Assembly (NCBI RefSeq): GCF_016894445.1
Contig: NZ_CP056775.1
Location: 1,056,001-1,120,000, forward strand
Direction of reading: 5' to 3'
DNA: 64,000 nucleotides
Source: Dyadobacter sandarakinus
Lineage (GTDB): Bacteria; Bacteroidota; Bacteroidia; Cytophagales; Spirosomataceae
Positions 1 to 32,884 of this stretch are shown one piece after another. The translations under genes and the position numbers were made by a program. How positions within the stretch are numbered: the stretch's first letter is position 1; the number at the start of each line of letters is the position of its first letter. The notes below the pieces were generated by a model. The model was not told where the DNA came from. It did no database searches and was given only the letters and a program-made list of their open reading frames with translations.

Positions 1-1385
1 ATGTGCTCAAAGAAGTGCGTGAAGGAGCTTATGATGCCAAAATCAAGGCATTTTGCCTGGCACTGGCCAGGAAATCGGGCACTACCTATTTGCGCTGGAA
101 CCCCGAGATGGAAGTTCCTGTGCAGCTGTATCCCTGGCAATACCAGGCGCCAGTCGACTACATTGAAGCATTCAATCATTTTTGCAAACTGGCTAGGTCT
201 GTTTTTCCCGCAGTGAAAATAGTGTGGGGACCGGCGGGCTATCCTGGTTCAGATGAATATTGGCCCGGGCCTGTTTTTGTGGACTATATCAGTGTGACGA
301 TTGATGGTAAATCTGAACTGGCAGCGACTGCCTTCCCGGCTGTGAAAGACCCTGAGGAAAATGTCAGGCGGAAAATACAGCGTATGCGAATGTTCGGAAA
401 GCCGGTGCTGGTTATGAAAGCGGGAAGCGTCAGTGAGGCTGATCTCAAAGCCGCGCTGGTAAAAGCCGCTGCAAGTACGCGGCTCAATGCCGGCATTCTG
501 TATCAGACACAAGACACGGAAGGCGCTCCAAATGTTACCGAAAAGAGAACACCGCTGATTGGTGTATATGATCCCAAAGCATTGCTGGTTAACTCGGGAC
601 TGATTGATGCGGAGCATATTTTTGTCGATCTGATCGCTGTGCAGAACGGTCAGTTCGAGAGGGATTTCAATGCAATCGTTTCTCGCCGCCACGATGCCAT
701 TGTGAGTATCGAGCCGTGGCATAATGCAGGGGTCAAAAAAGATTCAAATGCACTGGGCAATGTAATTAATGGCATTTATGATGCGGAGTTTGCTGAAATC
801 TACCGTGTACTTGCAACCAGTAAGCAAACCGTTTACCTGCGCTTTGCACACGAAATGGAAATCCCTATCCACCGGTATGCGTGGCAAAGCCAGGATCCTG
901 TACTTTATATCAAAGCCTTCCGGTACTTTATGAACTTTGACGGTTCAAAAAACAAAAGGATTAAAAAGGTATGGGGACCGGCCGGCGACCGGGGTTCGAT
1001 CGAATGGTGGCCGGGCGATGATGTGGTGGATTACATCAGCATAGCCATATACGGGTTGCCCGACAAGAACATTACAGATCCTGAGCAGCAGGAGTCTTTC
1101 GAAACCATTTACAATCGCAAACACTACCGGATGCGGCTGGTAAACAAGCCCATCTTCATCACTGAGTTTGGTGTGAAAGGCCCTGAAAATTTCAAGAAAA
1201 AATGGTTGGAAAAAGCAGCCGAGGTCATCGGTAATCGTCCGGAGATCAGAGGTGTGAGCTATTTCAATTTAGCCGATAATCCCAAAGTGTGGGGCAACAT
1301 TCCACCTCCCGACTGGAGTGTGAGCAAGCCAACCTTTCAGCATTTTGTAAATACCTTATCAATGGCCCGAGTGGGGTTCCGGTAG
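1..1385 (+). CDS. Tandem GH26-like (mannanase-type) glycosidase protein, 5' truncated by window edge
   Basis: The frame is open from base 3 to the TAG at 1383, so the true start lies before the window. Two homologous modules of about 200 residues follow each other. The second has the GH26-type acid/base motif RFAHEMEIP (Glu about 284 of the visible 460 residues) and a nucleophile-like ITEFGV (Glu about 388). The first keeps NPEMEVP (Glu about 35), but its nucleophile segment reads VLVMKAG (about 135-141), so it looks catalytically dead. Both share a WGPAG-x-x-GS motif. Family assignment rests on these motifs only. The gene converges on the GT2 synthase and overlaps it by 27 bp tail to tail, suggesting a role in trimming or releasing the polymer that enzyme makes (inference). 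Confidence 0.75.
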   Translation, partial: VLKEVREGAYDAKIKAFCLALARKSGTTYLRWNPEMEVPVQLYPWQYQAPVDYIEAFNHFCKLARSVFPAVKIVWGPAGYPGSDEYWPGPVFVDYISVTIDGKSELAATAFPAVKDPEENVRRKIQRMRMFGKPVLVMKAGSVSEADLKAALVKAAASTRLNAGILYQTQDTEGAPNVTEKRTPLIGVYDPKALLVNSGLIDAEHIFVDLIAVQNGQFERDFNAIVSRRHDAIVSIEPWHNAGVKKDSNALGNVINGIYDAEFAEIYRVLATSKQTVYLRFAHEMEIPIHRYAWQSQDPVLYIKAFRYFMNFDGSKNKRIKKVWGPAGDRGSIEWWPGDDVVDYISIAIYGLPDKNITDPEQQESFETIYNRKHYRMRLVNKPIFITEFGVKGPENFKKKWLEKAAEVIGNRPEIRGVSYFNLADNPKVWGNIPPPDWSVSKPTFQHFVNTLSMARVGFR

Positions 1386-4289
1386 TAGTGGTGTGTTCAG
1401 GCTGGAATCAATGATGTCGATTACCACATTGCCTTCGAGCACAAACAGGTAAAGCCTGTAAGTTTCGGGATCAGGGGGTATTTGCAGGCTCAGGTCGGTG
1501 CCGGTGCCCACGTCCTTTGAAGAAATGAGGTTGAAATAGTCATCCATCTGCACCAGCTTCCATTCAAATTTGAAGCTCGTTTTCAGGTCTTTTGCCAGTG
1601 ACCAATTCCCGTCCTTCCGGATGACTGCGTGGTAGTCGAGCATCAATCCGGCAACTGTGGCTGCGGCAGGTCTTAAAATTCTGGTTTTGGGTGGTTCCCA
1701 TGTTTTTGCATGCCCATGCCATTTGGCGGCAAGTTGCAGCATTGAAATTTTCCTGCGGCCAGTCCCGTCTTTTAAACCGTCAAAAGTTACCTTTTCGTAA
1801 GCATGCACATCCTGCCAGTTTGAAATAAAAACACCCGCCGAATCACCTGAATGTCTGGTATAGGTGTCATATTCAGCGTAACTGGTAAAATGCGGAAAGT
1901 TTTCCGGCATTTTATGTTGAGCAGCATTACTGTAGTAGACCAATCCATAAGACGCAATTCCCGGAATGGCAGCCCTTATTCTGGCAACAGCAGCATGCAT
2001 TGTTTCAGAAGCTTGGATGTCCAGCGTGATGGGGCGGCTGGGATCCACTTTTTTCATTTGCGAAACCAGCTTTTTCAGCCAAACCAAATACGCATCCTGT
2101 TGATCGGCTAAATCTCGGGGCAAATAATAGAACCGCAGATTCTGGAATACAGCATTTCCAATGTTCCAGGAAAAGATTTTCCGGTTTGCTTTATGGCTGC
2201 CTACCGCCAGCAATATCTTTTGTGAAAGCGCTTCCAGAGTTTGTTTATCTTTTTTGAAATCCAGGCCGGACGGCACCCAGAATCCATAATGAAGGTTCAT
2301 GCCTTGCGCTCCCGCGACACTCAGTATATTTCGATCGTAAATGCCTGGTCCATAAAACTTGACGGTGTTAATCCCAATCCTTTTCATTTCTTTAAAATCA
2401 GAAACAAGCTCTTTTTTCGTAAAAGCCTCATACTCGTTTTTCCAGTCGGAGCCTTTTAAATAATTGACGCCGCGCATTCCTTTAAATGAAATTACAGCTC
2501 CGGATGGATTGGGAGGCAACAGATCGGGCATTGCTGCTTCCCGACCCGATGTTTCTGATGTGATCAGAACATTTCCCGGCCCAAGCGGCCTGCGCATGCC
2601 ATGCCTTTCATGTCTGTGATAATCAGACTCATTTTCCAGGAACTTAAATTTTGCATTGTAGATCCAGACACCGACTAACAGGAACATAACCAGCATGGCT
2701 GTGCTGCGCAGGCCGGTATAAACCCGGTGCCTCAATATCCATAAAACGTCCTTCACTATTTTCAGGCGGCCCATCAGCGCATTCAGCCTGGGATTTTGTG
2801 CGCGCAGGAACCGGAACTGCTGTTGCCGGCTTGCCGCAATGGTAAAGCACATAAAAAGACAGTTCAATCCTGCAAAACCTGCCATGACCAGGTTGTACGG
2901 GTTCCAGTCAGTAAGCAATCCGTAGCCTATTGCAAACGCAGAAATAGCGAATATGAAGAGGTTGGGAATGTTGAGTGGCCAGTTATTGGCTTCATTGCCA
3001 TCCTTGGGCGTTGGAACGTAGGGCACCTTTTTTCCCGCAATCGTATAAACCAGACCAAGGATAAATACCCACCAGGTACCGATCAGGAGCAGTCCCCCGA
3101 CCATGTGGAAACCGCGCTCTTCGTCTTCCATGACCCACCATTGGACAAAATGCCGGATCAGCACGATGGATGCAATCAGGGGAAAAACAGCCAGCCCAAA
3201 CTCCGAAATGTCCATCTGCATGGGACTGGCCCCAAAACAAAGTGCGATGACCGGGATCAGGAAATTGATCAGGAAAATAACGCCCGACAGATAATGCATC
3301 GGGAGCAGCGCATAATGCAGCTTTTGGCGCCAGGTGAAGCGGCTGAACAATTTCGGATAAGCCGTAACCAGCAGATCAAAAACACCTCTTGACCATTTCA
3401 GCTGCTGCCTGTAGTAGGCAGAAAGGGTTGACGGCACAAGCCCGCGTGCCATAATTTCAGGCACATACACCGATTTCCATCCCTGGGCGTGCAGCTGCAT
3501 AGCCGTGTGCAAATCCTCCGCAAGTCCGGCGGCATGCCCACCGATGGAGTCCAGCGCAGTTCGCCGGAACGTGCAGTTGGCGCCTATCGCCAGCACGGTC
3601 CCATACTTGTTCATGGTCATCATGATGGGTCCATAAAACTGGTAGGTCTGCTGGGCAGCACCTTTGGCGATCAGACTTTCATTCCCGTTTTTATAGGCCT
3701 GGACAATCTGCACATATCCGATCTCCGGATTGGCGAAGTGCGGCACAATGGGGTCCAGAAAATCAGGGGCCGGAACATGGTCAGGATCCAGGACGACACA
3801 CAGCTCACCTGCTGACTGTTTCAAAGCATTGTTAATGTTACCGGCTTTTGCATCTGTTCTGTTTGTCCGGGTGATATGATGCACGCCCAGTTCCTGGCAG
3901 ACTTCCTTTAAAAAAGGATCATTTGCTTCGTCACACAGGTATGTTTCATGGGGGTAGGTAATTGCTTTTACAGCTTCAAGCGTTTCAACGATCATTTCGT
4001 AAGGTTCACCCGCACAGAATGTTGTGAAGATATCGACCGTGAAGTGCGTGGTAAGCGGCGGCGTTTTTGGGACGGTAATAAAAAGATAATGGTACCACTC
4101 GTAAAGGAGTTTCAGGCAAGTGAATACGAATGTTACCATCAGCATCCAGTACAGTGGCACATGGCCGCGCACCGCAGGGTTCAGCACATGGCAGAGGAAA
4201 AATACGATTGCAACACATCCAATGAAGATCATCACCCAAAGTGTGACAAGCTCGCGCTTTGTTGGGGGTGTGATCGTTATCCGCTTCAT
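1359..4289 (-). CDS. Cellulose-synthase-like GT2 glycosyltransferase fused to a glycosidase-like barrel
   Basis: This 976-residue membrane protein probably polymerises a beta-linked polysaccharide from nucleotide sugars at the inner membrane. Two N-terminal TM helices (about 17-34 and 45-62) precede a GT2 domain with D86, D120, the LDPDH metal-binding motif (D168, D170), AED (D259) and QQLKW (295-299, a QxxRW variant with Lys). Four or more TM helices follow at about 320-560. The C-terminal 400 residues resemble the TIM barrel of GH2/GH5-like enzymes (KGMRGVNYLKG, VKFYGPG). The usual GNE acid/base motif reads WNIGNA (Ala 713), so this domain is probably a binding or scaffold module. The start overlaps the preceding lipoprotein gene by 4 bp (ATGA), implying translational coupling. 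The polymer is unknown. Confidence 0.85.
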   Translation of the reverse strand: MKRITITPPTKRELVTLWVMIFIGCVAIVFFLCHVLNPAVRGHVPLYWMLMVTFVFTCLKLLYEWYHYLFITVPKTPPLTTHFTVDIFTTFCAGEPYEMIVETLEAVKAITYPHETYLCDEANDPFLKEVCQELGVHHITRTNRTDAKAGNINNALKQSAGELCVVLDPDHVPAPDFLDPIVPHFANPEIGYVQIVQAYKNGNESLIAKGAAQQTYQFYGPIMMTMNKYGTVLAIGANCTFRRTALDSIGGHAAGLAEDLHTAMQLHAQGWKSVYVPEIMARGLVPSTLSAYYRQQLKWSRGVFDLLVTAYPKLFSRFTWRQKLHYALLPMHYLSGVIFLINFLIPVIALCFGASPMQMDISEFGLAVFPLIASIVLIRHFVQWWVMEDEERGFHMVGGLLLIGTWWVFILGLVYTIAGKKVPYVPTPKDGNEANNWPLNIPNLFIFAISAFAIGYGLLTDWNPYNLVMAGFAGLNCLFMCFTIAASRQQQFRFLRAQNPRLNALMGRLKIVKDVLWILRHRVYTGLRSTAMLVMFLLVGVWIYNAKFKFLENESDYHRHERHGMRRPLGPGNVLITSETSGREAAMPDLLPPNPSGAVISFKGMRGVNYLKGSDWKNEYEAFTKKELVSDFKEMKRIGINTVKFYGPGIYDRNILSVAGAQGMNLHYGFWVPSGLDFKKDKQTLEALSQKILLAVGSHKANRKIFSWNIGNAVFQNLRFYYLPRDLADQQDAYLVWLKKLVSQMKKVDPSRPITLDIQASETMHAAVARIRAAIPGIASYGLVYYSNAAQHKMPENFPHFTSYAEYDTYTRHSGDSAGVFISNWQDVHAYEKVTFDGLKDGTGRRKISMLQLAAKWHGHAKTWEPPKTRILRPAAATVAGLMLDYHAVIRKDGNWSLAKDLKTSFKFEWKLVQMDDYFNLISSKDVGTGTDLSLQIPPDPETYRLYLFVLEGNVVIDIIDSSLNTPLLPEPHSGH

Positions 4290-5629
4290 CGGTCACTGAT
4301 CACGTAAAAGGGCGTGTTACAGCTGGCGAAGGTTCCGTTGTGATGGTATATTTTCGCAAAAATACGGTAAGGTCCTTCTTCCGCAGGTGACTTAAACTGA
4401 GCGGTAAGCCTGCCGCCGGATTCAACGCTCGCAGCAAGCGGGCGCGGTTGCTGCGAGCTGTTCTGCCCGTTTTCTTTATACCAATCCTCCGGCACAATTT
4501 CCCAATGCACGGACCTGATGCTGTCTCTCTGATGCAGAACAAGTTCAGGGTGCATCGCTTCTTCCGGGTTTAGCAAAATATCATCGGCAGCCCCTTTGTT
4601 GTTGAGGAGCATATAACGTATCTGCGGAAATTGATCTTTCGGAAGTTGTCCGGTCCATATGTATTGCATTATTGCAACCAGCTCGGACTTTCTGCCGGAT
4701 TCGTCGAACAGGCTAAACCAGGTAGAGGTAGTTTCTTGCTTGCTTCCCCAAAAAAATATAAAGCTCCCTAAAAAGCGTGGGTCTTTCACAGGTATTTCCT
4801 GCTGGTATCGCTTCAATATAACATCAGCCTTTTTTTTGCTCGGATTTTCAATGAAAGCACCCCAGGCTGTACACTGTGTTCCGGTCCATGGGCCGTCTGT
4901 TCCCCATTCCAATAACATATAGGGTCCGTTCCAAAACCATGAAAAGCTTTTCAGATCTTCTTTCAGCAATCGTAAATTGTTGAAAACATTAAACGATATA
5001 AGATCAATGTGGCATCGCAGCTGAATATTGGCGATGTATTTTCTATTGAAATTCAGGACAGTGGTCGTGATTGGATGATCGGGATCAACCCGGCGGATCA
5101 TTTTTGTAATTGCATTGAAGGCACTATAAAAATGGTTGTACGATGGGCTGTAAGGAAAATCCAGCTCGTTGCCCACACACCACATCAAAAGTGCGGGATG
5201 ATCTTTGTGCCTGTCAACAATTGACTGGAATTGAGCTAACTGTTTTGAAGCTTTGATTGGATCGTTGTAAAAGTCCTTTTGATCACTGTTCCGGATCGGA
5301 AGACCGGCGATGATGGCAAGGCCATTTTGCTGTGCACTGTCCAGTACCTGTTGCAATTGCGTAGTGTCCCATATGCGCAGACATGTTCCTCCCGCCTCAC
5401 GCAGCGCCTTGAAATTGGATGTTCCACCGGCACCGTTTATCCCGAATGCTTTTCCATCGCGCAGTACAACATATCCGCTGTCGGACTTCACAATGCGGAC
5501 TTTCGCCCCTGCATTTAATTCTCTCTTGTTACAAGCAAGCAGGGTGACGAAAACATAGAGGCAAGTGGTGCAAATCGTTAAATATGCAGTGTGATTTCTG
5601 AACAATATGGCGGAACTATGAAGCCTCAC
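4286..5629 (-). CDS. Glycoside hydrolase-like lipoprotein (GH2-type TIM barrel)
   Basis: This 447-residue protein has an N-terminal hydrophobic segment ending in a lipobox-like LLAC (Cys33), so it is probably anchored to a membrane lipid. The barrel carries LLMWCVGNELD (Glu155, the acid/base position of clan A glycosidases) and MLLEWGTDGPW (Glu241, candidate nucleophile), so unlike the barrel fused to the downstream synthase it may be active. A beta-sandwich-like C-terminal stretch follows at about 350-447. It is the first gene of a two-gene minus-strand unit with the GT2 synthase, with a 4 bp overlap. A synthase plus glycosidase pair is common in exopolysaccharide loci, where the hydrolase edits or releases chains. 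Substrate cannot be deduced. Confidence 0.8.
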   Translation of the reverse strand: MRLHSSAILFRNHTAYLTICTTCLYVFVTLLACNKRELNAGAKVRIVKSDSGYVVLRDGKAFGINGAGGTSNFKALREAGGTCLRIWDTTQLQQVLDSAQQNGLAIIAGLPIRNSDQKDFYNDPIKASKQLAQFQSIVDRHKDHPALLMWCVGNELDFPYSPSYNHFYSAFNAITKMIRRVDPDHPITTTVLNFNRKYIANIQLRCHIDLISFNVFNNLRLLKEDLKSFSWFWNGPYMLLEWGTDGPWTGTQCTAWGAFIENPSKKKADVILKRYQQEIPVKDPRFLGSFIFFWGSKQETTSTWFSLFDESGRKSELVAIMQYIWTGQLPKDQFPQIRYMLLNNKGAADDILLNPEEAMHPELVLHQRDSIRSVHWEIVPEDWYKENGQNSSQQPRPLAASVESGGRLTAQFKSPAEEGPYRIFAKIYHHNGTFASCNTPFYVISDR

Positions 5630-17825: not shown

Positions 17826-18443
17826 ATGATTTCCCCGAGTTCTGACGAAGATGACAAACAAGCACATCCATCCGTTTCGCTGGATCATGACGGCGTGCTG
17901 CGACCGGATGATGAAATCCTGATCCGCAGGGCTTTTGCCGCGGATGCGTACCAAGGGTGCGATCTGCTCTTTCGCCGGTACTATCAGCCACTTTGCAGTC
18001 AGGCTGCGCGGTTCGTGTATGACAAAGCGATTGCGGAAGATATCGTCGCCGATTTGTTCAAAACCTTCTGGCAAAAAAGGATTTTTGAGCGCATTACCTG
18101 TTCCTACCGCGCATACCTGTACCGGGCAGTTCGCCACAATTGCCTGCTGTATCTGCAACGAGAGGCCAAAATAACCATTTCGGTAGACCAATACCGATCC
18201 GAAGAAATGCTCGCCCACGCGTCGCCTCCTGCTGACCAGATCCAGTTTGATGAACTTGCCGAGCGCATTGATCGGGTAATCCGCGCGCTGAGTCCGTCAG
18301 TGCGCCGGGTCTTTCTGTTAAGCCGGTTTGAAGGACGCAAGAATCAGGAAATAGCAAACGAACTACACATTTCACTAAAAACCGTAGAGGCGCACCTGAC
18401 AAAAGCCCTCCACGTTTTTCGCAATGCATTAAGTCATGAATGA
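17826..18443 (+). CDS. ECF-type RNA polymerase sigma factor (FecI-like)
   Basis: A 205-residue sigma-70 factor from MISPSSDEDD (17826); an in-frame start at 17766 would add 20 residues unlike other sigma factors. Region 2 is at about 45-110 (LFRRYYQPLCSQAARFVYDK, AEDIVADLFKTFW) and region 4 at about 140-200 (LSPSVRRVFLLSRFEGRKNQ, EIANELHISLKTVEAHLTKA). It overlaps the FecR gene by 8 bp. Order ECF-FecR-SusC-SusD is the standard arrangement by which Bacteroidota switch on a nutrient uptake locus when the substrate binds the outer-membrane receptor. It presumably drives transcription of the 19663-26964 genes. Confidence 0.92.
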   Translation: MISPSSDEDDKQAHPSVSLDHDGVLRPDDEILIRRAFAADAYQGCDLLFRRYYQPLCSQAARFVYDKAIAEDIVADLFKTFWQKRIFERITCSYRAYLYRAVRHNCLLYLQREAKITISVDQYRSEEMLAHASPPADQIQFDELAERIDRVIRALSPSVRRVFLLSRFEGRKNQEIANELHISLKTVEAHLTKALHVFRNALSHE

Positions 18444-19473
18444 ATCTAAGCCTCAGATCACCAGAGAAATTGTCTTTGCATACTTCGCGCATCTGGCGAC
18501 ACCTATCGAGCGACAACAAATTGAAAGCTGGCTTAAAACCAGGGAAGGTTCCGAAACCTACTATACCTACCTGGACGAGTGGGAGCGGCAATTTCCTCAG
18601 TTTCAGCCCAACCTGGAAGATGCCCGTGCCAGTTTCAACCTGTTTATGCGGGGGGACGGTTCTGCTGTTTCTTCTGATGCAGCGGATGAACCATTGCCGA
18701 TGGTCATTCCGGTTTCTGAAATCCGGCGTCCGGTTTGGCAGCGGGCAGGCATTTTCCTCTCGGCGGTGGCAGCGTCCGCAGTATTGGTGGCCGGGATGTG
18801 GCTGTCGAAAGACCTTTGGTACTATCAACGAATGACCAGCCGCCATGGACAAACCCTGTCCATTCGCTTGCATGACGGTTCGGAGGTACAGCTTGGGGCG
18901 CATTCTTCTTTGAAGTACCCCCGGTTTTGGTTTGGTAAAAATACACGCTACGTGTGGCTAGAGGGAGATGCGGAGTTCAAAGTCGCTCACCTTCCGGACG
19001 CGCAGCGCTTCATTGTTTATACGCCCGATCAGACTGCGATCGAGGTACTCGGAACCGAGTTCCTGGTAAACTGCCGGCTGAAATCCACCAAAGTGCTGCT
19101 CCGCACGGGCAGTATCAGGCTGACCAATCCGATGGCCGCACAACCGCTGCTGCTGAAACCGGGGGATCTGGTGACCGTTTCTGACGAAAAAAAGATACAG
19201 AAAGAGCACCGCGTCGTGCAAGCGGCTGAGCAGAAAGGAGAGGTCAGGAAATTCCTTTTTAAAAATACCTCTCTGAAGGAAATAGCAGACCAGCTTAACG
19301 ACGTATACGGAGTGAACGTTCGCATTGCCGAACCTGCCTTGTTGACCCGCACGGTGTCCGGCACTTTTCAGGCCGAAACCGCGGCAGATTTGCTGGAAGC
19401 TTTGTCTGAGATGATGACGCTGGATTTGAAGCAGACTACCGACGGCTATACGCTTCAACAGCGTAGCGAGTGA
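18436..19473 (+). CDS. FecR-family anti-sigma factor
   Basis: A 345-residue inner-membrane protein. A cytoplasmic N-terminus (about 1-100) would bind the ECF factor. One TM helix lies at about 108-126 (AGIFLSAVAASAVLVAGMW). The periplasmic FecR domain follows (RLHDGSEVQLGAHSSLKYP, WLEGDAEFKVAH), with a C-terminal DUF4974-like part (FKNTSLKEIADQLNDVYGVN). It should receive the signal from the STN domain of the downstream SusC. Overlap of 8 bp with the sigma gene couples their translation. Confidence 0.92.
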   Translation: MNESKPQITREIVFAYFAHLATPIERQQIESWLKTREGSETYYTYLDEWERQFPQFQPNLEDARASFNLFMRGDGSAVSSDAADEPLPMVIPVSEIRRPVWQRAGIFLSAVAASAVLVAGMWLSKDLWYYQRMTSRHGQTLSIRLHDGSEVQLGAHSSLKYPRFWFGKNTRYVWLEGDAEFKVAHLPDAQRFIVYTPDQTAIEVLGTEFLVNCRLKSTKVLLRTGSIRLTNPMAAQPLLLKPGDLVTVSDEKKIQKEHRVVQAAEQKGEVRKFLFKNTSLKEIADQLNDVYGVNVRIAEPALLTRTVSGTFQAETAADLLEALSEMMTLDLKQTTDGYTLQQRSE

Positions 19474-20090: not shown

Positions 20091-23000
20091 GTGACCGACA
20101 AAAGCGGGGAGGGTTTGCCGGGTGTGAACATCATTGTCAAGGGCACCCAGCAAGGAATGTCCACAGATGCAAAAGGTGCGTTTTCGATCGACGTCGCGGA
20201 TGATGAAACTACGCTGATCTTTTCGTTTGTCGGCTATATAAGCCAGGAAGTTGTAATTGGAAACCGGAGTGCCATAGACGTGGTGCTTGCAGTGGATGAA
20301 AAGAGCTTGCAGGAAGTGGTCGTGGTAGGTTACGGTAGCCGCCAGAAAAAGGACGTTACTACCTCCATTTCCACGATTGCATCCGAGGAAATTACCAAAA
20401 GTGTTTCAATGTCGCCTGAACTCGCCATGCAGGGCCGCATGACGGGCGTGCATATTTCCGGTAACTCGGGCAGCCCCATGACCAGGCCCAAAGTAAGGAT
20501 CCGGGGCGTGGGTACCTGGGGAGTGGCCGATCCGCTCTATGTAGTCGACGGCATCCCCATTACGGAGCTTGGAGGCGGAATTGAGGGCCAGGATGCGCGC
20601 GTCGGCGATGTGCGTGGTCCGATCAACATCATGACCATGATTGATCCCAATGATATTGAATCAATTTCAGTACTGAAAGATGCATCCGCCGCTGCGATCT
20701 ATGGTGTGCGCGCAGCCAATGGTGTTATCCTTATTACCACCAAACGCGGCCAGACAGAAAAGCCCGTCATCGAGCTCAACACCCGGTACGGGATCCAGAA
20801 CGTGGTGAAGAAATGGGATGTGATGGATACACAGTCGTACACAGACTTTTACCGAAAATCCTACGCCGCAAACCCCAGCTTTGCGCTCGACCCCGTGTTT
20901 GATCCCGCGAATCCCGGTTACCTGGGCAATACCCGGAACACCTACGACTGGCAGACGCCGACCATCAACAGAAATGCGGTCAATCAGGATTACTCCGTCA
21001 GGATTTCGGGTAAAACGCAGTCGACCAACTATTATGCGTCCGCCGGGTACACCTCAGCAGAAGGTACCCTCATTGCTGAAAAACTAGACCGTTATTCTTT
21101 TAACATCAAGCTCGACACGCGGATCAATGATTGGCTGAAGACGGGTATCAACTACCGGCTGGCCTATGTTGACGGGTATGACAATATGCAGGCCGGCCTG
21201 ACCAGCGCCGCCGAGACCCCGCCCTGGCAGCCCGTTTATGATCCCAATGGTCTGCCTATTCTGAGAGGTTTTGCGCCGGTGGTGAAAGGTTATAATACGC
21301 AGGGAGTCTGGTCTACGGATAAATTATATGGGGAAGGCACCCGCGCCAATACCATCGCGCAAACGCAGTTCAACACCCAGGACTACAATTCGATCCGGAA
21401 TCTCGGCAATACATTCGTGGAAATCACCCCGATCGAGGGCCTGTCAGTTAAAGGTTCGGTCAGCATCGACTGGTACAAACACGACCGGTTTTCTTTTAAC
21501 AACTACACAGGTCAGTACTTTACCTACTCCGGCAGTCCGACCGACAAGGGCGGCGGCAAGTCGCTCGGGTCGTACGAAGAGCGGTACACGACCAATTTTA
21601 ACCTGATCAAAGAACTGACGATCAACTACCACAGAGCATTCGGGTTGCACAATTTTGACCTGCTGCTGAATGGCATGGACCAGCGGTACTCGGCCAAATA
21701 CGTGACCGCCTCCACCGAATCCATGTCTACCATTGAAAAGCATCTGTTCAAGCTGGGAGGTGAAAACCAGTACACAATGGTGGAATCGGAGCTGTTCCGG
21801 TGGGCGCTGCAGGGTTTGCTGGGCAGGCTGAGCTATAATTTCAAGAACAAATATTATGTGGATGCTACCATGCGCAGGGACGGGAGCAACCGGTTTGCAC
21901 CGCAGAACCGCTGGGGTACCTTCCCGTCAGCCTCCGTGGCCTGGCGCCTGACCTCCGAGCCGTTTCTTCAGAATAACAAATGGCTCACCGACCTGAAATT
22001 CCGCGCGGGGTGGGGCAAGCTGGGTAACCAGGAAGTACGTCCACTGGCTTATCTGTCACCGGTGGAAAAAAGACCAACGTACGCATTCGGCTCCAATCCG
22101 GGAGGTAACGGACTCGGTAACTATGGGGTAGGCGCGGCCATGTTTTCTTTCCCGAATGCAGAACTCGGATGGGAGAAAATCACCACCACCAACATCGGAT
22201 TTGACGGACAGCTGCTGGGCAACCTTTCCTTTTCAGCCGAATATTACCACAAGCGGACAGACGGTATTTTGCAGGAAACAAAGATCCCGCCCAGCGTGGG
22301 AAGCAAGGAAAACCCGGTTGATAACATTGCTTCGGTCAAAAACTCCGGTTTTGAAATCTCGGCCAATTATGGCGGGTCGGTGGGCAATCTGGGTTATAGT
22401 ATTGGCGCGAACCTGACTACTGTCAAAAACCGGGTACTCAGTACATTCAGGGGCATTCCTCTGAACAGTGGCGACATGAGGATTGAGCCGGGCTACTCGA
22501 TGAACTACCTGTATGGTTATCAGGCAGCGGGCATTTTCCAGAACCAGGGTGAAATTGACCGGTATACCGGAAACACCAAAGACATTACCATTACGCAGAC
22601 CTTTCAGCCCGGCGACCGGTATTTCACAGACCTGAATGGCGCGCCGGATGTTGCCAGGGGCTACGAATTTTACACACCGGGTGCAGACGGGACGGTGAAT
22701 CAATACGACCGCACCAATCTGGGCAAAACGATCCCGGGCTACTATTACGGCTTCAATGTGGGGTTGAATTACAAGGGATTTGATCTTTCGGTGTTTTTCC
22801 TGGGCGTGGGGGATGTGAAAAAGTATAACTATGCGAGAGCGACCATGGAAAGTACCGCAACCCGCGGCAACAACCGGAGCGTGGCCGTACTCCATGCCTG
22901 GACGCCGGAAAATCCGAACACGGACATCGCCCGGGCGGTTGTCAACGATCCGAACGGCAGCCTGCGCGCTTCATCGTACTATGTCGAGAGCGCCGCGTAT

Positions 23001-23198
23001 TTCAAGCTCGGCAATGCCCAGCTGGGTTATTCTTTCCCGAAAACATTGCTGGCTCCATTGAAAAGCGTGAGCGCATTGCGGCTGTATGTGAGCGTCAACA
23101 ATGGTTTTATCCTGACCAAATGGAGCGGGCTGGATCCCGAGAATGACGACAACCCCGAGCCGCGTGTGTTCAACTTCGGCCTGAGTGCAAAATTTTAA
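20091..23198 (+). CDS. SusC/RagA-family TonB-dependent outer-membrane receptor
   Basis: The frame from 20091 encodes 1035 residues: a carboxypeptidase-D-like domain (VTDKSGEGLPGVNIIVKGT), the TonB-linked SusC signature (LQEVVVVGYG), a plug domain (VRIRGVG, PLYVVDGIPI, SISVLKDASAAAIYGVRAAN), and a long beta-barrel ending in RVFNFGLSAKF. This is the outer-membrane importer of oligosaccharides, working with SusD. The GTG at 20091 is not a convincing start: it lies inside the domain and has no signal peptide. The signal peptide and STN domain are in another frame just upstream, separated by an apparent one-base deletion near 20011. As read, the receptor could not be exported. Confidence 0.93.
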   Translation: MTDKSGEGLPGVNIIVKGTQQGMSTDAKGAFSIDVADDETTLIFSFVGYISQEVVIGNRSAIDVVLAVDEKSLQEVVVVGYGSRQKKDVTTSISTIASEEITKSVSMSPELAMQGRMTGVHISGNSGSPMTRPKVRIRGVGTWGVADPLYVVDGIPITELGGGIEGQDARVGDVRGPINIMTMIDPNDIESISVLKDASAAAIYGVRAANGVILITTKRGQTEKPVIELNTRYGIQNVVKKWDVMDTQSYTDFYRKSYAANPSFALDPVFDPANPGYLGNTRNTYDWQTPTINRNAVNQDYSVRISGKTQSTNYYASAGYTSAEGTLIAEKLDRYSFNIKLDTRINDWLKTGINYRLAYVDGYDNMQAGLTSAAETPPWQPVYDPNGLPILRGFAPVVKGYNTQGVWSTDKLYGEGTRANTIAQTQFNTQDYNSIRNLGNTFVEITPIEGLSVKGSVSIDWYKHDRFSFNNYTGQYFTYSGSPTDKGGGKSLGSYEERYTTNFNLIKELTINYHRAFGLHNFDLLLNGMDQRYSAKYVTASTESMSTIEKHLFKLGGENQYTMVESELFRWALQGLLGRLSYNFKNKYYVDATMRRDGSNRFAPQNRWGTFPSASVAWRLTSEPFLQNNKWLTDLKFRAGWGKLGNQEVRPLAYLSPVEKRPTYAFGSNPGGNGLGNYGVGAAMFSFPNAELGWEKITTTNIGFDGQLLGNLSFSAEYYHKRTDGILQETKIPPSVGSKENPVDNIASVKNSGFEISANYGGSVGNLGYSIGANLTTVKNRVLSTFRGIPLNSGDMRIEPGYSMNYLYGYQAAGIFQNQGEIDRYTGNTKDITITQTFQPGDRYFTDLNGAPDVARGYEFYTPGADGTVNQYDRTNLGKTIPGYYYGFNVGLNYKGFDLSVFFLGVGDVKKYNYARATMESTATRGNNRSVAVLHAWTPENPNTDIARAVVNDPNGSLRASSYYVESAAYFKLGNAQLGYSFPKTLLAPLKSVSALRLYVSVNNGFILTKWSGLDPENDDNPEPRVFNFGLSAKF

Positions 23199-23216
23199 TC
23201 TCAAATCGACCGGTAT

Positions 23217-24761
23217 ATGAAACCCTTTGGATTGATATGGTCTGTGCTGATGGTGCTTGTGGTATGCAGCGCCTGCGACCGGAATTTAGATGTGAAACCT
23301 ACAAGAGAACTGGAATCGGAGTACTTCTCCGACGAGGAACGTATGCAGCGGGGCGTGCTGGGTGTGTATGCGAAAATTACGGACCTCTACGGGTACAATG
23401 CCAATGCGCCCAGCCACAAGCTCTGGCTGCTGCCCGGCGACGACCTGATGGCGAACAATCCCCGGCAGATCGACAATTTCAAAGGTTTGAATGGTTCGGA
23501 TCCGGATATAAACTTCATCTGGAATCGTCTTTACCAGCTGAACAGTCGCGCCAATACCATGCTGGAAGTCATCGACGGGAATATGGGTGTTTACAACAAC
23601 AAAACCCTGGCCGATCAGAATAAGGGCGAAATGCTGTTTCTCCGGTCATGGAGTTTTTATAAGCTATGGAGCTGGTGGGGCAAAGCGCCCGTGGTCACAG
23701 AGCGGATCCGAAGCTTGTCCGATATTTATCACGGCCCTTCCCAAAGTACTGAGATGCTGGACAAAGCAATTGAAGACCTGGAAGCTGCGGCTGAGTTGCT
23801 CCCGGCAACATGGCCGCTCAGCGAATCGGGTCGGGTGACGAAGGATGCGGCCAATGGATTACTCGTCAAATGCTATGTTACCCGGGCGTGTTTTAATGGA
23901 AAAAATGCGCAGGACTACCAGAAGGCGATCACGGCTTTCACCCGCATTTCGGCCACGCGCAAACTCACCAATCATTTCGGGGAGAATTTTGATTACCGTT
24001 TTGAAAACAATGAGGAGTCTTTGTTCGAATTCCAGGCCAGCCTGAAAACGGCGGAGAACCCGTGGCTGGACAATGATTTTACCGATGCCGTGGGTACGAT
24101 GGGTGCTTTTTACAAACATTTTGAAAACAACTTTACCAATCAGGGTACAATCGTAGGACCTACTTTTAAAATGGTCAATGCATTCGAGGTGGGCGACCCC
24201 AGGATTGCAGAAACCTTTGTAAAAGAATCCAGCGGAGCCTTTGCATTCAATGGAGGCTATCAGATGGTGAAGTACATCAATGGAAAAAGAGGTAAGTATG
24301 CAGGGATCGCCAATATCAATTCCATTAATAATACACGGATTCTTCGCCTGGCCGATGTTAAATTACTCGCGGCCGAGGCTTATCTACAAACAAACCAGCC
24401 GGCGAAGGCGCTTGAACAGGTGAACGACATCCGGCTGCGGGCAAGAAGGTCGACCTCCACGGGTACTCCGGCCGCGGTTCCGGCGAATCTGACTACCGTG
24501 AGCATGCAGCATATCATGGATGAACGCATGCGCGAGCTGGTGGGTGAAGAAGGTATCCGGTGGGACGATCTGAAACGCTGGCACAAGGCAGGATTCATTA
24601 ATCTGGGAACCTGGAAAAAAACGGATTTCGGCATGGGACCGCAATACGACGAAATGCTTTGGGGGTTTGATGTAACCGCACACTTGCTGATGCCGATCCC
24701 GATCACTGAAATGGACAGTAACCCTGAAATGCTGAAAAGCGGTCAGAATCCAGGATACTAG
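23217..24761 (+). CDS. SusD/RagB-family nutrient-binding outer-membrane lipoprotein
   Basis: A 514-residue lipoprotein with lipobox VCSAC (Cys20). The SusD fold is seen in LDVKPTRELESEYFSDEERM near the start, the TPR-like helices (EMLFLRSWSFYKLWSWWG, DKAIEDLEAAAELLP) and the conserved C-terminus (RMRELVGEEGIRWDDLKRW, LLMPIPITEMDSNPEM). It forms the lid over the SusC pore and binds the glycan at the cell surface. It starts 18 bp after the susC-like stop, in the same transcript. Confidence 0.93.
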   Translation: MKPFGLIWSVLMVLVVCSACDRNLDVKPTRELESEYFSDEERMQRGVLGVYAKITDLYGYNANAPSHKLWLLPGDDLMANNPRQIDNFKGLNGSDPDINFIWNRLYQLNSRANTMLEVIDGNMGVYNNKTLADQNKGEMLFLRSWSFYKLWSWWGKAPVVTERIRSLSDIYHGPSQSTEMLDKAIEDLEAAAELLPATWPLSESGRVTKDAANGLLVKCYVTRACFNGKNAQDYQKAITAFTRISATRKLTNHFGENFDYRFENNEESLFEFQASLKTAENPWLDNDFTDAVGTMGAFYKHFENNFTNQGTIVGPTFKMVNAFEVGDPRIAETFVKESSGAFAFNGGYQMVKYINGKRGKYAGIANINSINNTRILRLADVKLLAAEAYLQTNQPAKALEQVNDIRLRARRSTSTGTPAAVPANLTTVSMQHIMDERMRELVGEEGIRWDDLKRWHKAGFINLGTWKKTDFGMGPQYDEMLWGFDVTAHLLMPIPITEMDSNPEMLKSGQNPGY

Positions 24762-27394: not shown

Positions 27395-30013
27395 ATGAGA
27401 CAATCTCTGCTTCGCTTACAATTTTTAATGCTTTGTCTTGGCTTGTCAGCTAGCCTGCTTGCACAGCCGGCTATTCAATGGGACAAAACCATTGGTGGAA
27501 ACAATGAAGACCGCCTGAATTCAGTCCAGCAAACCCTTGACGGCGGATACATTCTTGGAGGAACTTCTTATAGCGGCGTTTCAGGTGAAAAGTCGGATTC
27601 AGCACGCGGAAATGGAGACTATTGGATTGTTAAGCTAGCTGCCGACGGGACCAAACAGTGGGACCGGACACTGGGTGGAACCGGACACGAAACTTTTTCC
27701 ACGATCCGCCAAGCGAAAGACGGGAGTTATTTTGTCGCCGGGTCTTCGAGCTCCGGGGTCAGTGGAGACAAGACGGATGCCGTTCATGGCGAATACGATG
27801 ATCTCTGGGTCTTGAATCTGGCGGCTGATGGAACAATCAACTGGCAGAAAACGATCGGGACGGCAAATAATGAATTTTTGAATGACATGGAGGTTGCTCC
27901 CGACGGAGGGCTGGCAATCGCCGGAAGTTCTTCTCCAATCAGCTCTACGGGCTCCGGCAATAACCACGGCTGGTTTGTGAAACTGAGCGCCTCCGGAGAA
28001 CTGCAATGGAGCAGAGACTACTATACTAATTTTAACACCATGCGCCTGGCATCTATTACGCTTGTCCCCGGTGGTGGCTACCTGCTTGGTGCGGATACGA
28101 GCGGTGGAGAAGCAAGGGGCGGCGCATATTATGTAATCAGGGTATCCGCCGATGGCACTACGCTTTGGACCAAAGAGATAAGGGGGGCAAGTAGTGAGAG
28201 TTCTCGCAACAGCGCTCTCCGATCTGTTATTGATACACCAGACGGAGGGTTTTTGATTGGCGGAGTTTCAGATAACCCTGCGATCGGAGATAAATCGGAA
28301 GATAGTTTTTATGATGATTTTTGGATCGTTAAGCTGTCTGCAACTGGGGTCATCGAATGGGAGAATACTATTCAGGCAAATGATTTCGAAAAACTGGCAG
28401 GTATGCAGTCTACAAATGATGGCGGCTATCTCATTTTTGGCGACACGCAGTCCTTGGTAGATCTTGATAAAACGGATGCCAATTCTGGGGTGCAAAATTG
28501 GTGGCTTGTAAAGTTATCTGCAAATGGAACGCTGCTTTGGGATAAAGTTATTGGGGGCATTTATTCAAATTATTCATTGGACGAAGCCAGGGATATCATA
28601 GCGACGAGTGACGGTGGTTTCCTCCTTGCCGGATATTCAGGTTCTCCGGCGGCAGCTGACAAAACCGAACCCTCCCGCGGCGGAAACGACTACTGGATTG
28701 TCAAACTCGCCCCCGAAAACCCGCCTCTCCCACAAACCACCATTCGCATCAATGCCGGCGGACCGGATTTTACGACGGCCACCAAAAAGCTCTTCATCGC
28801 CGACAAGTATTACGCCGGCATCGACCGCACCAGCTCCATCGCGTCGGGTGATATTTTGAATACCACCAATGATGTACTATACCGCTCCGGCCGGTGTTCG
28901 CCTGCTTTCAGCTACAATATTCCGGTGCAAAACGGACAGGTGAATGTGACTTTGCACTTTGCCGAAACGTACTTCGGAGCGCCGGGCAAAAAGGGAGGCG
29001 CGGGCAGCCGCCAGTTCCACGTCAACATGGAAGGAAGCCGCAAGCTGACCAACTACGACATCTTTGCTCAGGCAGGCGGCGCATTGCGTGCCGTGCAGCT
29101 GACTATCCCGGTAATGGTCACCGATGGCGTGCTCAATATTGATTTTCTGAGTGGAGCAGCAGATCTACCCAGGGTTTCGGCGATCGAAGTGGTGGCGACG
29201 AGCCTGACCCTGGCGCCGATTGCAGACACTTATATACAGGCCGGACAGTTTCTCAACACCAATTTTGGAACAAACTCAACTTTCGAGGTCAAATACTCGT
29301 CCAGCGACGTTACAAAAAGAAGGGCGTCTTACCTCAAATTTCAGCTTCCTGCACAAACGCCTGTCATTTCGGCCAAACTGCGCGTGTACGGCCATAACCA
29401 TGAAAATACAAAACCTATTTTCCTCCACGCTTACGGGGTCAATATGGATACCTGGTCTGAAAGCGGCATTACCCAATCCAATGCCCCTGCCGCATCGACC
29501 GGATCGCTTGGCTTTGCAACAGTCACTGATGTTTACGCATACTATGAAATTGATGTGACCAGCTACGTCAAAGCCCAGCAGCAAGCCGGTGAAACTTTGG
29601 TCAGCCTGCTTCTGCACGATCCCAATAACCGGAATACCCGGCTTATTTTCAACAGCAAGGAAGCAGGCTCAAACCCGCCGCAGCTGGTGATCCAGACTAC
29701 GAACAGTAGTGCACGTCTGGGAGAGGAAGCAGTTTTGTCAGCAGCAACAGAAAAGCAGCCTTCCACCGTTTTCCCAAATCCAATCAAAGAGCACTTTACC
29801 GTTTCACTTTCGCCGGAACATGTGGGGATCATAACATTTGAAATGATCAACGCAGCTGGTAAAAGCCGCACGATTTCGGCAGTTCAAAATGCTAAAACGG
29901 GTGAAAACACAGAAATGAACACGGCAGGACAATCATTCGATGCAGGCATTTATTTGCTGAAAATAAAGTCGGATGCATTTACAGAGGTGGTCAGGGTGCT
30001 TGTAGCAGAATAA
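27395..30013 (+). CDS. T9SS cargo: seven-repeat propeller, malectin, DNRLRE and sorting domains (paralogue 1)
   Basis: An 872-residue secreted protein with a signal peptide ending in LLAQ. Residues about 25-440 hold seven repeats built around TxDGGYxLGG followed by DYWIVKLxADGxxQWD, which suits a seven-bladed beta-propeller. A malectin-like carbohydrate-binding domain follows (about 448-605, RINAGGPDF, LHFAETYFGAPG, FHVNMEG), then a DNRLRE/CBM96-like domain (about 608-770, RASYLKFQLP, LRVYGHN) and a T9SS type A sorting domain (about 795-872, VFPNPIKEHFTVSL). It is exported through the outer membrane and likely stays on or near the surface. It probably binds sugars; no catalytic residues are apparent. 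Confidence 0.88.
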   Translation: MRQSLLRLQFLMLCLGLSASLLAQPAIQWDKTIGGNNEDRLNSVQQTLDGGYILGGTSYSGVSGEKSDSARGNGDYWIVKLAADGTKQWDRTLGGTGHETFSTIRQAKDGSYFVAGSSSSGVSGDKTDAVHGEYDDLWVLNLAADGTINWQKTIGTANNEFLNDMEVAPDGGLAIAGSSSPISSTGSGNNHGWFVKLSASGELQWSRDYYTNFNTMRLASITLVPGGGYLLGADTSGGEARGGAYYVIRVSADGTTLWTKEIRGASSESSRNSALRSVIDTPDGGFLIGGVSDNPAIGDKSEDSFYDDFWIVKLSATGVIEWENTIQANDFEKLAGMQSTNDGGYLIFGDTQSLVDLDKTDANSGVQNWWLVKLSANGTLLWDKVIGGIYSNYSLDEARDIIATSDGGFLLAGYSGSPAAADKTEPSRGGNDYWIVKLAPENPPLPQTTIRINAGGPDFTTATKKLFIADKYYAGIDRTSSIASGDILNTTNDVLYRSGRCSPAFSYNIPVQNGQVNVTLHFAETYFGAPGKKGGAGSRQFHVNMEGSRKLTNYDIFAQAGGALRAVQLTIPVMVTDGVLNIDFLSGAADLPRVSAIEVVATSLTLAPIADTYIQAGQFLNTNFGTNSTFEVKYSSSDVTKRRASYLKFQLPAQTPVISAKLRVYGHNHENTKPIFLHAYGVNMDTWSESGITQSNAPAASTGSLGFATVTDVYAYYEIDVTSYVKAQQQAGETLVSLLLHDPNNRNTRLIFNSKEAGSNPPQLVIQTTNSSARLGEEAVLSAATEKQPSTVFPNPIKEHFTVSLSPEHVGIITFEMINAAGKSRTISAVQNAKTGENTEMNTAGQSFDAGIYLLKIKSDAFTEVVRVLVAE

Positions 30014-30037
30014 TCATTTTATATGAATATCGTGAAT

Positions 30038-30066
30038 AGGAAAGCCGCTTATCCAGCGGCTTTCCT
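30038..30066 (+). terminator. Hairpin after paralogue 1
   Basis: A perfect 12 bp stem (AGGAAAGCCGCT at 30038-30049 with AGCGGCTTTCCT at 30055-30066) around a 5-base loop, 25 bp past the stop of paralogue 1. The T-run is weak. Its position argues against starting the next gene at 30023. Confidence 0.6.
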
Positions 30067-30178
30067 GGTTATCAGTCGACCATTGTATGCTGCGGTAAAA
30101 TATAATTCCTGTCCAGGCAGTATCCGGTATGATGGATTGACTAGTAGTCATAAAATGTTACTCACAAACAATTCACCT

Positions 30179-32806
30179 ATGAAACGATTTTTGCTTCACT
30201 TACAATGTTTACTGCTTTGCCTTGGCTTGTCTGCAAGTCTCTGTGCTCAGCCTGCTATCCAGTGGGAGAAAACCATTGGTACCACGCTTGACGAATTTCC
30301 CATTTATAAGATTACCCCAACACCTGATGGCGGCTATATCCTTGCAGCTTCTGCAAGAGCAGGCATAGGCGGAGACAAGTCGGAAGCTTCAAGAGGTTAT
30401 TATGACTTTTGGATTGTCAAGCTAAAGAAAGACGGTCAGAAAGAATGGGACAAAACGATTGGCGGCAATGGTTTGGACGATCTGAGGGCTCTCCTGGTTA
30501 CGAACGATGGGGGATACCTTCTTGGAGGAGGTTCATCCTCAGACATCAGTGGTGAAAAAACATCCGGAGTTCTGGGAAATACCGAGGATACCGGAGATTT
30601 CTGGATTGTGAAGTTGGATAAAAACGGAAACAAACAATGGGACAAGGCAATAGGCGGTCAGTATACTGACGTAATCACCAGCATGGACAATACGTCTGAC
30701 GGCGGATACATACTTGGCGGATTTTCGGATTCCGATGCGAGCTTTAACAAGTCTCAGCCGAGCCGGGGGATTGATTACTGGATTGTAAAAATAACGGCGA
30801 ATGGAGCGATTCAATGGGACAAAACCATCGGGAGCATTTTTACAGACCGGTTGTTTTCGGTCAGACAAACGGCGGATGGTGGATACATACTGGGCGGTAA
30901 CTCTGAAACCTACACTAAACCCACCGGCGACAAAACCAGTGCCGGGAATGGCGACTTTGATTACTGGATTGTAAAGCTTGACAATGCCGGAAACAAACAA
31001 TGGGATCGGGTGTTAGGTGGCAATTGGGAAGAGCATTTTGGATCCGTTGAACAAACCTCAGACGGCGGTTATGTTGTTGGAGGTTATTCTTCTTCTGCAA
31101 TAAGCGGGGATAAAACCGAAGACCGTCCTGCTGACGATTACTGGATTGTAAAACTTTCAGCAGATGGAGCAAAGGAATGGGACAGGGCAAGGGGAGGCGA
31201 AAGTGATCTGAGCTGGTGCACGAATGTGATTCAAACCCGTGATGGTAATTACATCGCATTTGGGATCACGCGATCGTCAGCCGGAGGTGACAAATCGGAA
31301 GAAAATGAGGGGATCTGGCTGATCAAGTTCAATGCAGCCGGTACTAAAATATGGGACAAAGTTTGGGATGGATTCACCTATGGCAACCTGGTAGAGGCCG
31401 CCGACGGAACACTCGCCTTCGTTGGGGAAGTTTTTAACAGCATTGATCAGACCGAACCTTCGCGAGGTGAGGGTGACTACTGGATCGTTAAATTAGCCCC
31501 CGAAAAGCCGCCGGTTCCGCAAGCCACCCTCCGCATCAATGCCGGCGGGCCGGACTTTACCACCGCTACCAAGAAGCTTTTCATTGCGGATAAATATTAC
31601 GCCGGCATCGACCGCACCAGCTCCATCGCCTCGGGTGATATTTTGAACACGAGCAATGATGTACTTTATCGCTCGGGCCGGAGTTCACCTTCTTTCAGCT
31701 ACAATATTCCGGTACAGATTGGACTGGTAAATGTCACCCTGCACTTTGCCGAGACGTACTTTGGTGCGCCGGGCAAAAAGGGAGGTGCGGGCAGCCGCCA
31801 GTTCCACGTCAACATGGAAGGCAGCCGCAAGCTGACCAACTACGACATCTTCGCTCAGGCAGGAGGAGCCCTGCGTGCCAATCAGATTACTTTTCCGGTG
31901 ATCGTCACAGACGGCGTGCTCAACATCGACTTCCTCACAGGAGCGGCTGACCAGCCCAGGGTTTCCGCCATTGAAATCGAATCGGATAACAATATGGGAG
32001 TAGCAACGCTGCTGGAAGATGCATCCGTACGGGGAGGGGTGTATAGTCCGGTGATGTATGGAGCAGACGCTACGCTGAATGTCAAAGACGGCCTTAATGA
32101 CGCCAATAACAGCCGCGCTTCGTACCTGAAATTCAAGTTACCGGCAGGTGTGCCCGTGGGTTCTGCAAAGCTGCGCGTTTACGGGCACAATCATGAAAAC
32201 AATAATAACATTTCACTGCATGCCTATGGTGTCGACAATGTTAGTTGGGAGGAACGTAGCATTACGAAACTGAACGCCCCGGCCGCATCTACGCCATCGC
32301 TGGGATTTGTGGCTGTCAATGCTGATTACAAGTATTATGAAATTGATGTAACCAGCTATGTTAGTGCGGCGCAGCAATCCGGTAAACCAATTATAAGTTT
32401 CGTTCTGAAAGATCCCTACAACCGTAATACCAGGCTGACCTTCAACAGCAGAGAAACAGGCAGCAATCCCGCTCAGCTGGTGATTCAGGCTGTCAACCCC
32501 GGTGCACGATTGGGCGGGGGAGCTGTATTCCCGGAAGTAGCGGAAAAGCAGCCATCAACTGTTTTTCCCAATCCGGTAAAAGACGGGTTCACTGTTTCAC
32601 TTTCGCCGGAACATGCCGGAACAGTTACCTTTGAAATGATCAATGCAGCAGGAAAAGGTCACATCCTTCTGGCGCCGGAAAATGTCAGGCCAGGCGAAAA
32701 GGTGCCCCTGAACATTGCCGGACAATCGTTCAGGACAGGCATTTATTTATTGAAAATAAAATCGGATGCATGTACTGAGGTGCTCAAAATGGTTGTAGCC
32801 GAGTGA
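30179..32806 (+). CDS. T9SS cargo: seven-repeat propeller, malectin, DNRLRE and sorting domains (paralogue 2)
   Basis: An 875-residue paralogue of the previous gene. The start at 30179 is chosen because MKRFLLHLQCLLLCLGLSAS aligns with the signal peptide of paralogue 1; the longer frame from 30023 would run through a hairpin. It has seven DGGY-type repeats (the last two degenerate: TRDGNYIAFG, AADGTLAFVG), a malectin-like domain (about 449-600), a DNRLRE-like domain (about 610-770) and a T9SS sorting domain (VFPNPVKDGFTVSL … GIYLLKIKSDACTE). The malectin segment is much closer to paralogue 1 than the propeller parts are, suggesting gene conversion. Confidence 0.88.
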   Translation: MKRFLLHLQCLLLCLGLSASLCAQPAIQWEKTIGTTLDEFPIYKITPTPDGGYILAASARAGIGGDKSEASRGYYDFWIVKLKKDGQKEWDKTIGGNGLDDLRALLVTNDGGYLLGGGSSSDISGEKTSGVLGNTEDTGDFWIVKLDKNGNKQWDKAIGGQYTDVITSMDNTSDGGYILGGFSDSDASFNKSQPSRGIDYWIVKITANGAIQWDKTIGSIFTDRLFSVRQTADGGYILGGNSETYTKPTGDKTSAGNGDFDYWIVKLDNAGNKQWDRVLGGNWEEHFGSVEQTSDGGYVVGGYSSSAISGDKTEDRPADDYWIVKLSADGAKEWDRARGGESDLSWCTNVIQTRDGNYIAFGITRSSAGGDKSEENEGIWLIKFNAAGTKIWDKVWDGFTYGNLVEAADGTLAFVGEVFNSIDQTEPSRGEGDYWIVKLAPEKPPVPQATLRINAGGPDFTTATKKLFIADKYYAGIDRTSSIASGDILNTSNDVLYRSGRSSPSFSYNIPVQIGLVNVTLHFAETYFGAPGKKGGAGSRQFHVNMEGSRKLTNYDIFAQAGGALRANQITFPVIVTDGVLNIDFLTGAADQPRVSAIEIESDNNMGVATLLEDASVRGGVYSPVMYGADATLNVKDGLNDANNSRASYLKFKLPAGVPVGSAKLRVYGHNHENNNNISLHAYGVDNVSWEERSITKLNAPAASTPSLGFVAVNADYKYYEIDVTSYVSAAQQSGKPIISFVLKDPYNRNTRLTFNSRETGSNPAQLVIQAVNPGARLGGGAVFPEVAEKQPSTVFPNPVKDGFTVSLSPEHAGTVTFEMINAAGKGHILLAPENVRPGEKVPLNIAGQSFRTGIYLLKIKSDACTEVLKMVVAE

Positions 32807-32833
32807 CAGGCTAGGTATGTAGAACAATCAATG

Positions 32834-32868
32834 CAAAAAAGCCGCCTGTCGGGTTTAGACAGGCGGCT
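32834..32868 (-). terminator. Intrinsic terminator of the minus-strand T9SS gene
   Basis: An 11 bp stem (32840-32850 with 32858-32868) around GGGTTTA, preceded on the plus strand by A6. On the minus strand it is a GC-rich stem followed by T6, a classic terminator for the gene ending at 32885. It lies between two convergent paralogues. Confidence 0.85.
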
Positions 32869-32884
32869 GCATCCTCTGCAACGC

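Follow-up and report, generated by a model that had tools for sequence, protein, structure and literature searches.

What does a membrane polysaccharide synthase gain from a glycosidase-type barrel that has lost its catalytic glutamates, when an intact barrel of the same kind is encoded directly beside it? This question is raised by a locus at the start of a 64,000-nucleotide stretch of DNA (the window) from Dyadobacter sandarakinus, a soil bacterium whose 6.07-Mb genome is assembled in a single contig. The original prediction for this locus held that a GT2 polymerase tethered to an inactive, probably sugar-binding barrel and paired with an active paralogue could guide and cut the nascent chain, and that a convergent GH26-like protein completed the set. 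Our analysis confirmed what had been observed and partly supported how it had been interpreted. We judge it somewhat more probable than the contrary that the synthase makes a β-1,3- or mixed β-1,3/1,4-glucan, that its C-terminal pseudo-GH158 domain holds the chain and that trimming or transglycosylation falls to the GH158 and GH26 partners. The features are as follows, in window coordinates:

1..1385, plus strand: 3′ part of the tandem GH26-like gene (whole open reading frame, L002:9553-11385)
1359..4289, minus strand: GT2 synthase with C-terminal pseudo-GH158 domain, 976 aa (P0001)
2810..4289, minus strand: GT2 core with membrane helices, residues ~1–493
2636..2723, minus strand: extra hydrophobic segment after the synthase core, residues ~523–551
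1389..2504, minus strand: pseudo-GH158 domain, residues 596–967, barrel plus Ig-like domain
4286..5629, minus strand: GH158 lipoprotein, 447 aa (P0002)

The lipoprotein gene lies upstream of the GT2 gene and overlaps its start by 4 bp, and the GH26-like gene is convergent with the GT2 gene, their 3′ ends overlapping by 27 bp. Residues ~80–490 of the synthase are recognized as GT2 by Pfam and NCBIfam, with cellulose synthase as the nearest match, and residues 10–495 match the BcsA fold (Z 27) in an AlphaFold model with a mean pLDDT of 81.5. D120, DPD (168–170), ED (258–259) and QQLKW (295–299) are invariant in an alignment of 33 relatives, as is the gating-loop-like stretch P423–K429 except for V425. 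Sequence and model together place the GT2 among the BcsA-like synthases with all catalytic motifs. Its score of 172.7 bits misses the TIGR03030 (BcsA/CelA) cut-off of 699.1 bits, and neither a PilZ nor a GH17 domain occurs among its Pfam matches up to E 1; in a tblastn search against plasmids, identity was 26–28% in the best 30 of 843 matches. Hydropathy segments were located at residues ~14–32, 44–62, 334–352, 360–382, 396–414, 441–459, 467–485 and 523–551. Because we take segment 396–414 to be an interface helix, by analogy with the BcsA layout, the synthase would have seven membrane helices, a cytoplasmic glycosyltransferase and a periplasmic C-terminus, with segment ~523–551 as the probable extra helix that places the C-terminal domain in the periplasm.

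That C-terminal domain, residues 596–967, matches GH158 structures over both barrel and Ig-like domain (Z 26.1 for 9p2f, 24.3 for 6pal), and its nearest structures include GH158(Pro) and BuGH158 at Z 24–26. A GT2 enzyme with a glycosidase-like barrel at its C-terminus had been predicted correctly; the generic barrel proposed at the time proved, by structure match, to be of the GH158 type, and it did not align with an active family that uses other residues. GH2 was rejected as the barrel family, its Pfam match being sub-threshold (14.2 vs 21 bits) and outranked by GH158 chains in Z. At the acid/base position GNE has become GNA, as originally read (A713, codon 2151–2153), and the nucleophile has gone as well, its position being taken by Y804 (codon 1878–1880), while N712, W708 and W825 are kept. 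A bridging alignment joined 19 of the 36 dead-type fused barrels with five live fused barrels from distant Bacteroidota relatives (L077–L080 and L084) and seven lipoproteins; both catalytic Glu are retained in 0/19 dead-type barrels, yet in 5/5 live fused barrels and in 7/7 lipoproteins. Among the 19, the acid/base Glu alone persists in one (L031), a Glu stands in the nucleophile column in two (L008, L016) and the Asn preceding the acid/base position is retained in 18; Y610, W616, W708 and W825 are present in all 19 and in all five live fused rows. Since both catalytic Glu are missing, in the window (A713, Y804) as in the dead-type rows, none of which keeps the pair, the domain is best filed, by sequence and model, as a putative GH158-derived pseudoenzyme rather than a GH158 enzyme, in line with the inactivity first suspected. 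The one exception at the acid/base position, L031:1489-4428, is the sole dead-type barrel examined that keeps GNE there; it has Tyr at the nucleophile position and is either a late survivor or a reversion.

Could such a barrel still be catalytic through other residues, such as the conserved W825-Q826-D827 segment? W825 and Q826 are kept in 19/19 dead-type rows and D827 in 18/19; however, W825 and D827 also occur in 5/5 live fused domains and hence need no new role, and there is no conserved Glu at either catalytic position, so that we consider this highly improbable. Purifying selection still acts on the dead barrel, whose pairwise (NG86) dN/dS is 0.07–0.22 in 12 pairs vs 0.016–0.10 for the GT2 part, although some of these values are rough because dS exceeds 1 in several pairs. 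Its faster evolution compared with the GT2 part and the shortened loop following the nucleophile strand would suit a scaffold that is off the sugar and either docks the lipoprotein and GH26 partners or stabilizes the synthase. Against such a purely structural role, which we think rather unlikely, N712 and the aromatic residues common to the live fused GH158 domains are kept, though some of these may themselves be structural. For the chain-holding function that we prefer, the pattern of substitutions suggests that the barrel gave up catalysis but kept residues capable of holding sugar.

The upstream lipoprotein retains what the fused barrel lacks. It carries its lipobox Cys33 at window 5533 and the two catalytic candidates, E155 at 5167 and E241 at 4909, so that the coupling of the synthase gene to a gene for an intact barrel was rightly anticipated. 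Sequence matches over the barrel and Ig-like domain were found to 9oro (E 7.9e-54, residues 43–441) and 6pal (E 8.3e-44), with N154-E155 and E241 aligned to the GNE and E-G segments of both; these residues are invariant in 19 aligned members, and Cys33, E155 and E241 fall in columns conserved in 95% or more of 30 lipoprotein rows. A simple lipobox pattern matches 16 of the 30 rows, and in several of the remaining 14 a hydrophobic stretch is followed by a Cys that escaped the pattern or its search range. By sequence, the lipoprotein belongs to GH158 and would, going by its family, have β-1,3 specificity; as both barrels match GH158, it is a paralogue of the fused domain, as had been supposed.

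The convergent GH26-like protein is present as predicted, but its gene starts outside the window and encodes two GH26-like barrels in tandem. The open reading frame spans 610 aa, of which window positions 3–1385 cover the last 460 aa only; Met46, conserved in the family and located at window −312, is the likelier start, and the N-terminus is hydrophobic after it, which may be read as a membrane anchor. Repeat 1 keeps E185 (window 105), but has K289 (window 417) at the nucleophile position; among the 19 rows listed, this position holds Glu in none, and the acid/base position holds Glu or Asp in those rows for which it was listed. In repeat 2 both Glu are kept (E434, window 852; E538, window 1164), and H433, E434 and E538 are invariant in 24 aligned tandem GH26 proteins. 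A Pfam scan of the 460-aa window part gave no GH26 family, the Glyco_hydro_cc match reaching 13.1 vs 21 bits. In a structure model, repeat 2 matches the lichenase CtLic26 best (Z 24), with E434 and E538 aligned to its HE and AEF segments, which presumably supply the catalytic Glu. Other GH26 matches include a β-1,3-xylanase and a mixed-linkage xylanase (Z 21–22) and mannanases (Z 18–19), which would agree with another β-linked glycan such as xylan or mannan as the polymer; we hold this to be improbable, as the lichenase is the best match and the nearest structures of the lipoprotein are GH158. A glucan is itself only a tentative product, proposed from the hydrolase families, namely the GH158 and CtLic26 relatives.

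Conserved linkage of the three genes, another expectation of the original prediction, was found: loci of Dyadobacter, Larkinella and Pedobacter share this gene arrangement. Within the genus, all three genes are present in the same 20 of 48 genomes and none of them in the other 28, a coincidence with a chance of 6e-14 if genomes were independent, a figure that overstates the case because the genomes share ancestry. A search of 99 relatives (E up to 1e-60 for the GT2, up to 1e-30 for the lipoprotein) placed the GT2 in 28 genomes, and the lipoprotein in 29 (one more, owing to G088); the tandem GH26 turned up in 21, every one of which also holds the GT2. In a first set comprising the window and 24 loci, the lipoprotein gene adjoins the GT2 gene in 25/25 and the tandem GH26 gene does so in 19/25; the misses are L003, L011, L013, L020, L021 and L026, and the loci L003 and L020 end near the GH26 gene. 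In 20 further loci, chosen for holding the GT2, the lipoprotein gene is adjacent in 18 and the tandem GH26 gene in four. The order lipoprotein, GT2 and tandem GH26 forms a same-strand operon in L072, L075 and L088, and in L085 the neighbour of the GT2 gene is a separate gene for a single GH26 that retains both Glu. The tandem GH26 is present but unlinked to the synthase in G001, G006 and G240; G336 and G176 have the synthase with no tandem GH26, linked or unlinked, and G060 (82% complete) has neither a fused nor a separate GH26. Across a class-wide sample of 295 genomes, the GT2 occurs in 14 and GH158 relatives in 41, and because 28 of these 41 lack this GT2, GH158 as such is not synthase-specific.

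At G006:C22:566692-569965 a second GH158 lipoprotein gene lies beside a tandem GH26 gene with no GT2 match there, the GT2 and the other lipoprotein of this genome being on C1. The synthase and the lipoprotein of L087 (G064) are split over several ORFs, reflecting either a decayed copy or sequencing errors. Elsewhere in the window, positions 27395–36154 encode large secreted proteins, three in number, all of which combine Malectin and CBM96 with a Por secretion tail, and a SusC/SusD-type pair at 20091–24761 is preceded by a FecR-type protein at 18436–19473.

Beyond the synthase and lipoprotein clusters, no neighbouring family was found in more than 9 of 25 loci viewed over ~8 kb on each side of the genes. 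The tandem GH26 was counted separately because the neighbourhood clustering gave it no entry of its own, the fused GH26 having apparently drawn it into the synthase cluster. In these 25 loci the genes are not accompanied by any conserved outer-membrane exporter, as might be expected if the product were a short or cyclic periplasmic β-glucan and the GH158 and GH26 partners acted as transglycosylases. GT2-GH17 proteins offer a precedent, having been proposed as makers of cyclic β-1,3-glucan (PMC10237404). However, an exporter may be encoded beyond the ~8 kb viewed on each side, BuGH158 is described as a hydrolase (PMC7157763), and the usual mechanism is closed to pseudo-GH158; we consider this outcome conceivable, though on balance doubtful.

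How the fused barrel lost its activity can be approached through its relatives. The 47 synthases compared include 36 with a dead-type GH158 barrel, five with a live one and six without such a domain; the acid/base Glu is missing in 35 of the 36, among them L086, which aligns poorly. Many relatives carry an additional fused GH26 domain that the window’s lineage is without: three-domain long forms of more than 1200 residues occur in the Pedobacter and Larkinella loci, and the five distant Bacteroidota relatives have a GT2-GH26-GH158 order with both GH158 Glu kept. Since these five retain both residues, the inactivity of the fused barrel looks derived. In the GT2 tree (47 rows), one group of 35 with support 100/100 contains dead-type barrels throughout, its sister is the live pair L077/L080 (support 96/85), and the remaining live rows, L078, L079 and L084, branch off at a greater distance; the placement of L085 and L086 is unsure because long branches meet. 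The live fused GH158 would thus be the older state on the midpoint rooting, which was used for drawing only.

Within the 47 synthases, the fused GH26 has both Glu and the HE motif in 14, an altered motif with both Glu in three (L008, L012, L073) and is degenerate in 12; in 17 it is absent, and in one (L085) it is a separate gene with both Glu present. The tandem GH26 gene is adjacent in 16 of the 17 synthases without a fused GH26, the exception being L003. A rule by which the separate GH26 occurs only where the fused one is dead was rejected, as 6 of the 14 loci with both fused Glu have an adjacent separate gene. Five GT2-GH26 proteins whose GH26 is degenerate lack both a GH158 domain and a tandem GH26 next to them, and in L084 (G230), in which both fused domains are live, a separate GH158 gene is missing at E up to 1e-30. 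The dN/dS of the fused GH26 is 0.34–0.43 in Larkinella (two pairs) vs 0.09–0.12 in Pedobacter (three pairs); in L008, L010 and L012 of Larkinella, HE has changed to PE or PG with the nucleophile Glu still in place and dN/dS raised, and the domain looks as if caught in decay. From the GT2 tree we infer a sequence in which the ancestor would have been a GT2-GH26-GH158 protein with a live GH158, the GH158 would have decayed in the Spirosomataceae/Sphingobacteriaceae group (Dyadobacter/Larkinella/Pedobacter), and the fused GH26 would have been lost in lineages holding the separate GH26 protein.

In the mechanism that we favour, the three genes would act as a single unit for the synthesis and processing of a β-glucan. 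The extra membrane helix would set the pseudo-GH158 in the periplasm, right where the chain leaves its channel, and there the domain may hold the nascent glucan and hand it on without cutting, and the tethered GH158 lipoprotein and the lichenase-like GH26 protein would trim, release or transglycosylate the chain. More tentatively, and as a proposal to which we attach limited confidence, the locus may represent an undescribed β-glucan pathway of Bacteroidota that had one polymerase with two glycosidase domains at its origin, in which, within one lineage, the fused GH158 became a chain-holder that does not cut, and the cutting by GH26 passed to an anchored protein of its own that has one degenerate barrel and one intact one. 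Dead barrels would then stand beside intact ones throughout the unit, and the product would be a glucan of defined size that has been processed and may be periplasmic. For the question of how membrane polysaccharide synthases govern the length and release of their chains, the natural relatives provide a test series in which the same synthase occurs with GH158 live, decayed or missing and with GH26 live, decayed, lost or split off. Such a series would test the role of a glycosidase domain at the synthase exit and would give a candidate route to β-1,3- or mixed-linkage glucan in Bacteroidota.

The fusion of a synthase with a glycosidase barrel is known in kind from the GT2-GH17 ‘Orphan’/NdvB proteins of pseudomonads, proposed cyclic-β-glucan synthases (PMC10237404). 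Like these, the synthase described here combines a BcsA-like GT2 and membrane helices with a β-1,3-glucan glycosidase-type barrel that is probably periplasmic; unlike in these, the barrel is GH158-type and C-terminal with no GH17 match, both Glu are lost in the window’s group, and the synthase is accompanied by GH26 domains and by an intact GH158 partner encoded separately. A literature search, which had most subscription journals and bioRxiv preprints outside its scope, found no description of a GT2-GH158 or GT2-GH26 synthase; nor did it list the combination of GH26 with GH158, the pseudoenzyme or its paralogous partners. With BcsA/CelA the synthase shares the GT2 fold, the D-D-D motifs and a gating-loop-like segment, but it has QQLKW instead of QxxRW, no PilZ match, an extra helix and a C-terminal glycosidase-type domain. 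The mixed-linkage glucan synthases BgsA and RiGT2, compared by description, are likewise single GT2 proteins without PilZ, and the polymer they make is cut by lichenase, whereas no glycosidase-type fusion is mentioned for them in the accessible parts of PMC9495663 and PMC10374906. The lipoprotein matches the family of the endo-β-1,3-glucanases BuGH158 (6pal) and GH158(Pro) (9oro) with both Glu and the Asn, and the fused domain has the same fold; in contrast to those enzymes, the present ones are tied to a synthase rather than to a utilisation locus, and the fused copy has lost catalysis. Finally, the hydrolases and lyases of exopolysaccharide operons, such as AlgL, which clears polymer from the periplasm (PMC8829089), are polymer-degrading enzymes encoded with a synthase in the same way, but AlgL is a separate periplasmic lyase, whereas here a paralogue of the degrading enzyme is also fused to the synthase.
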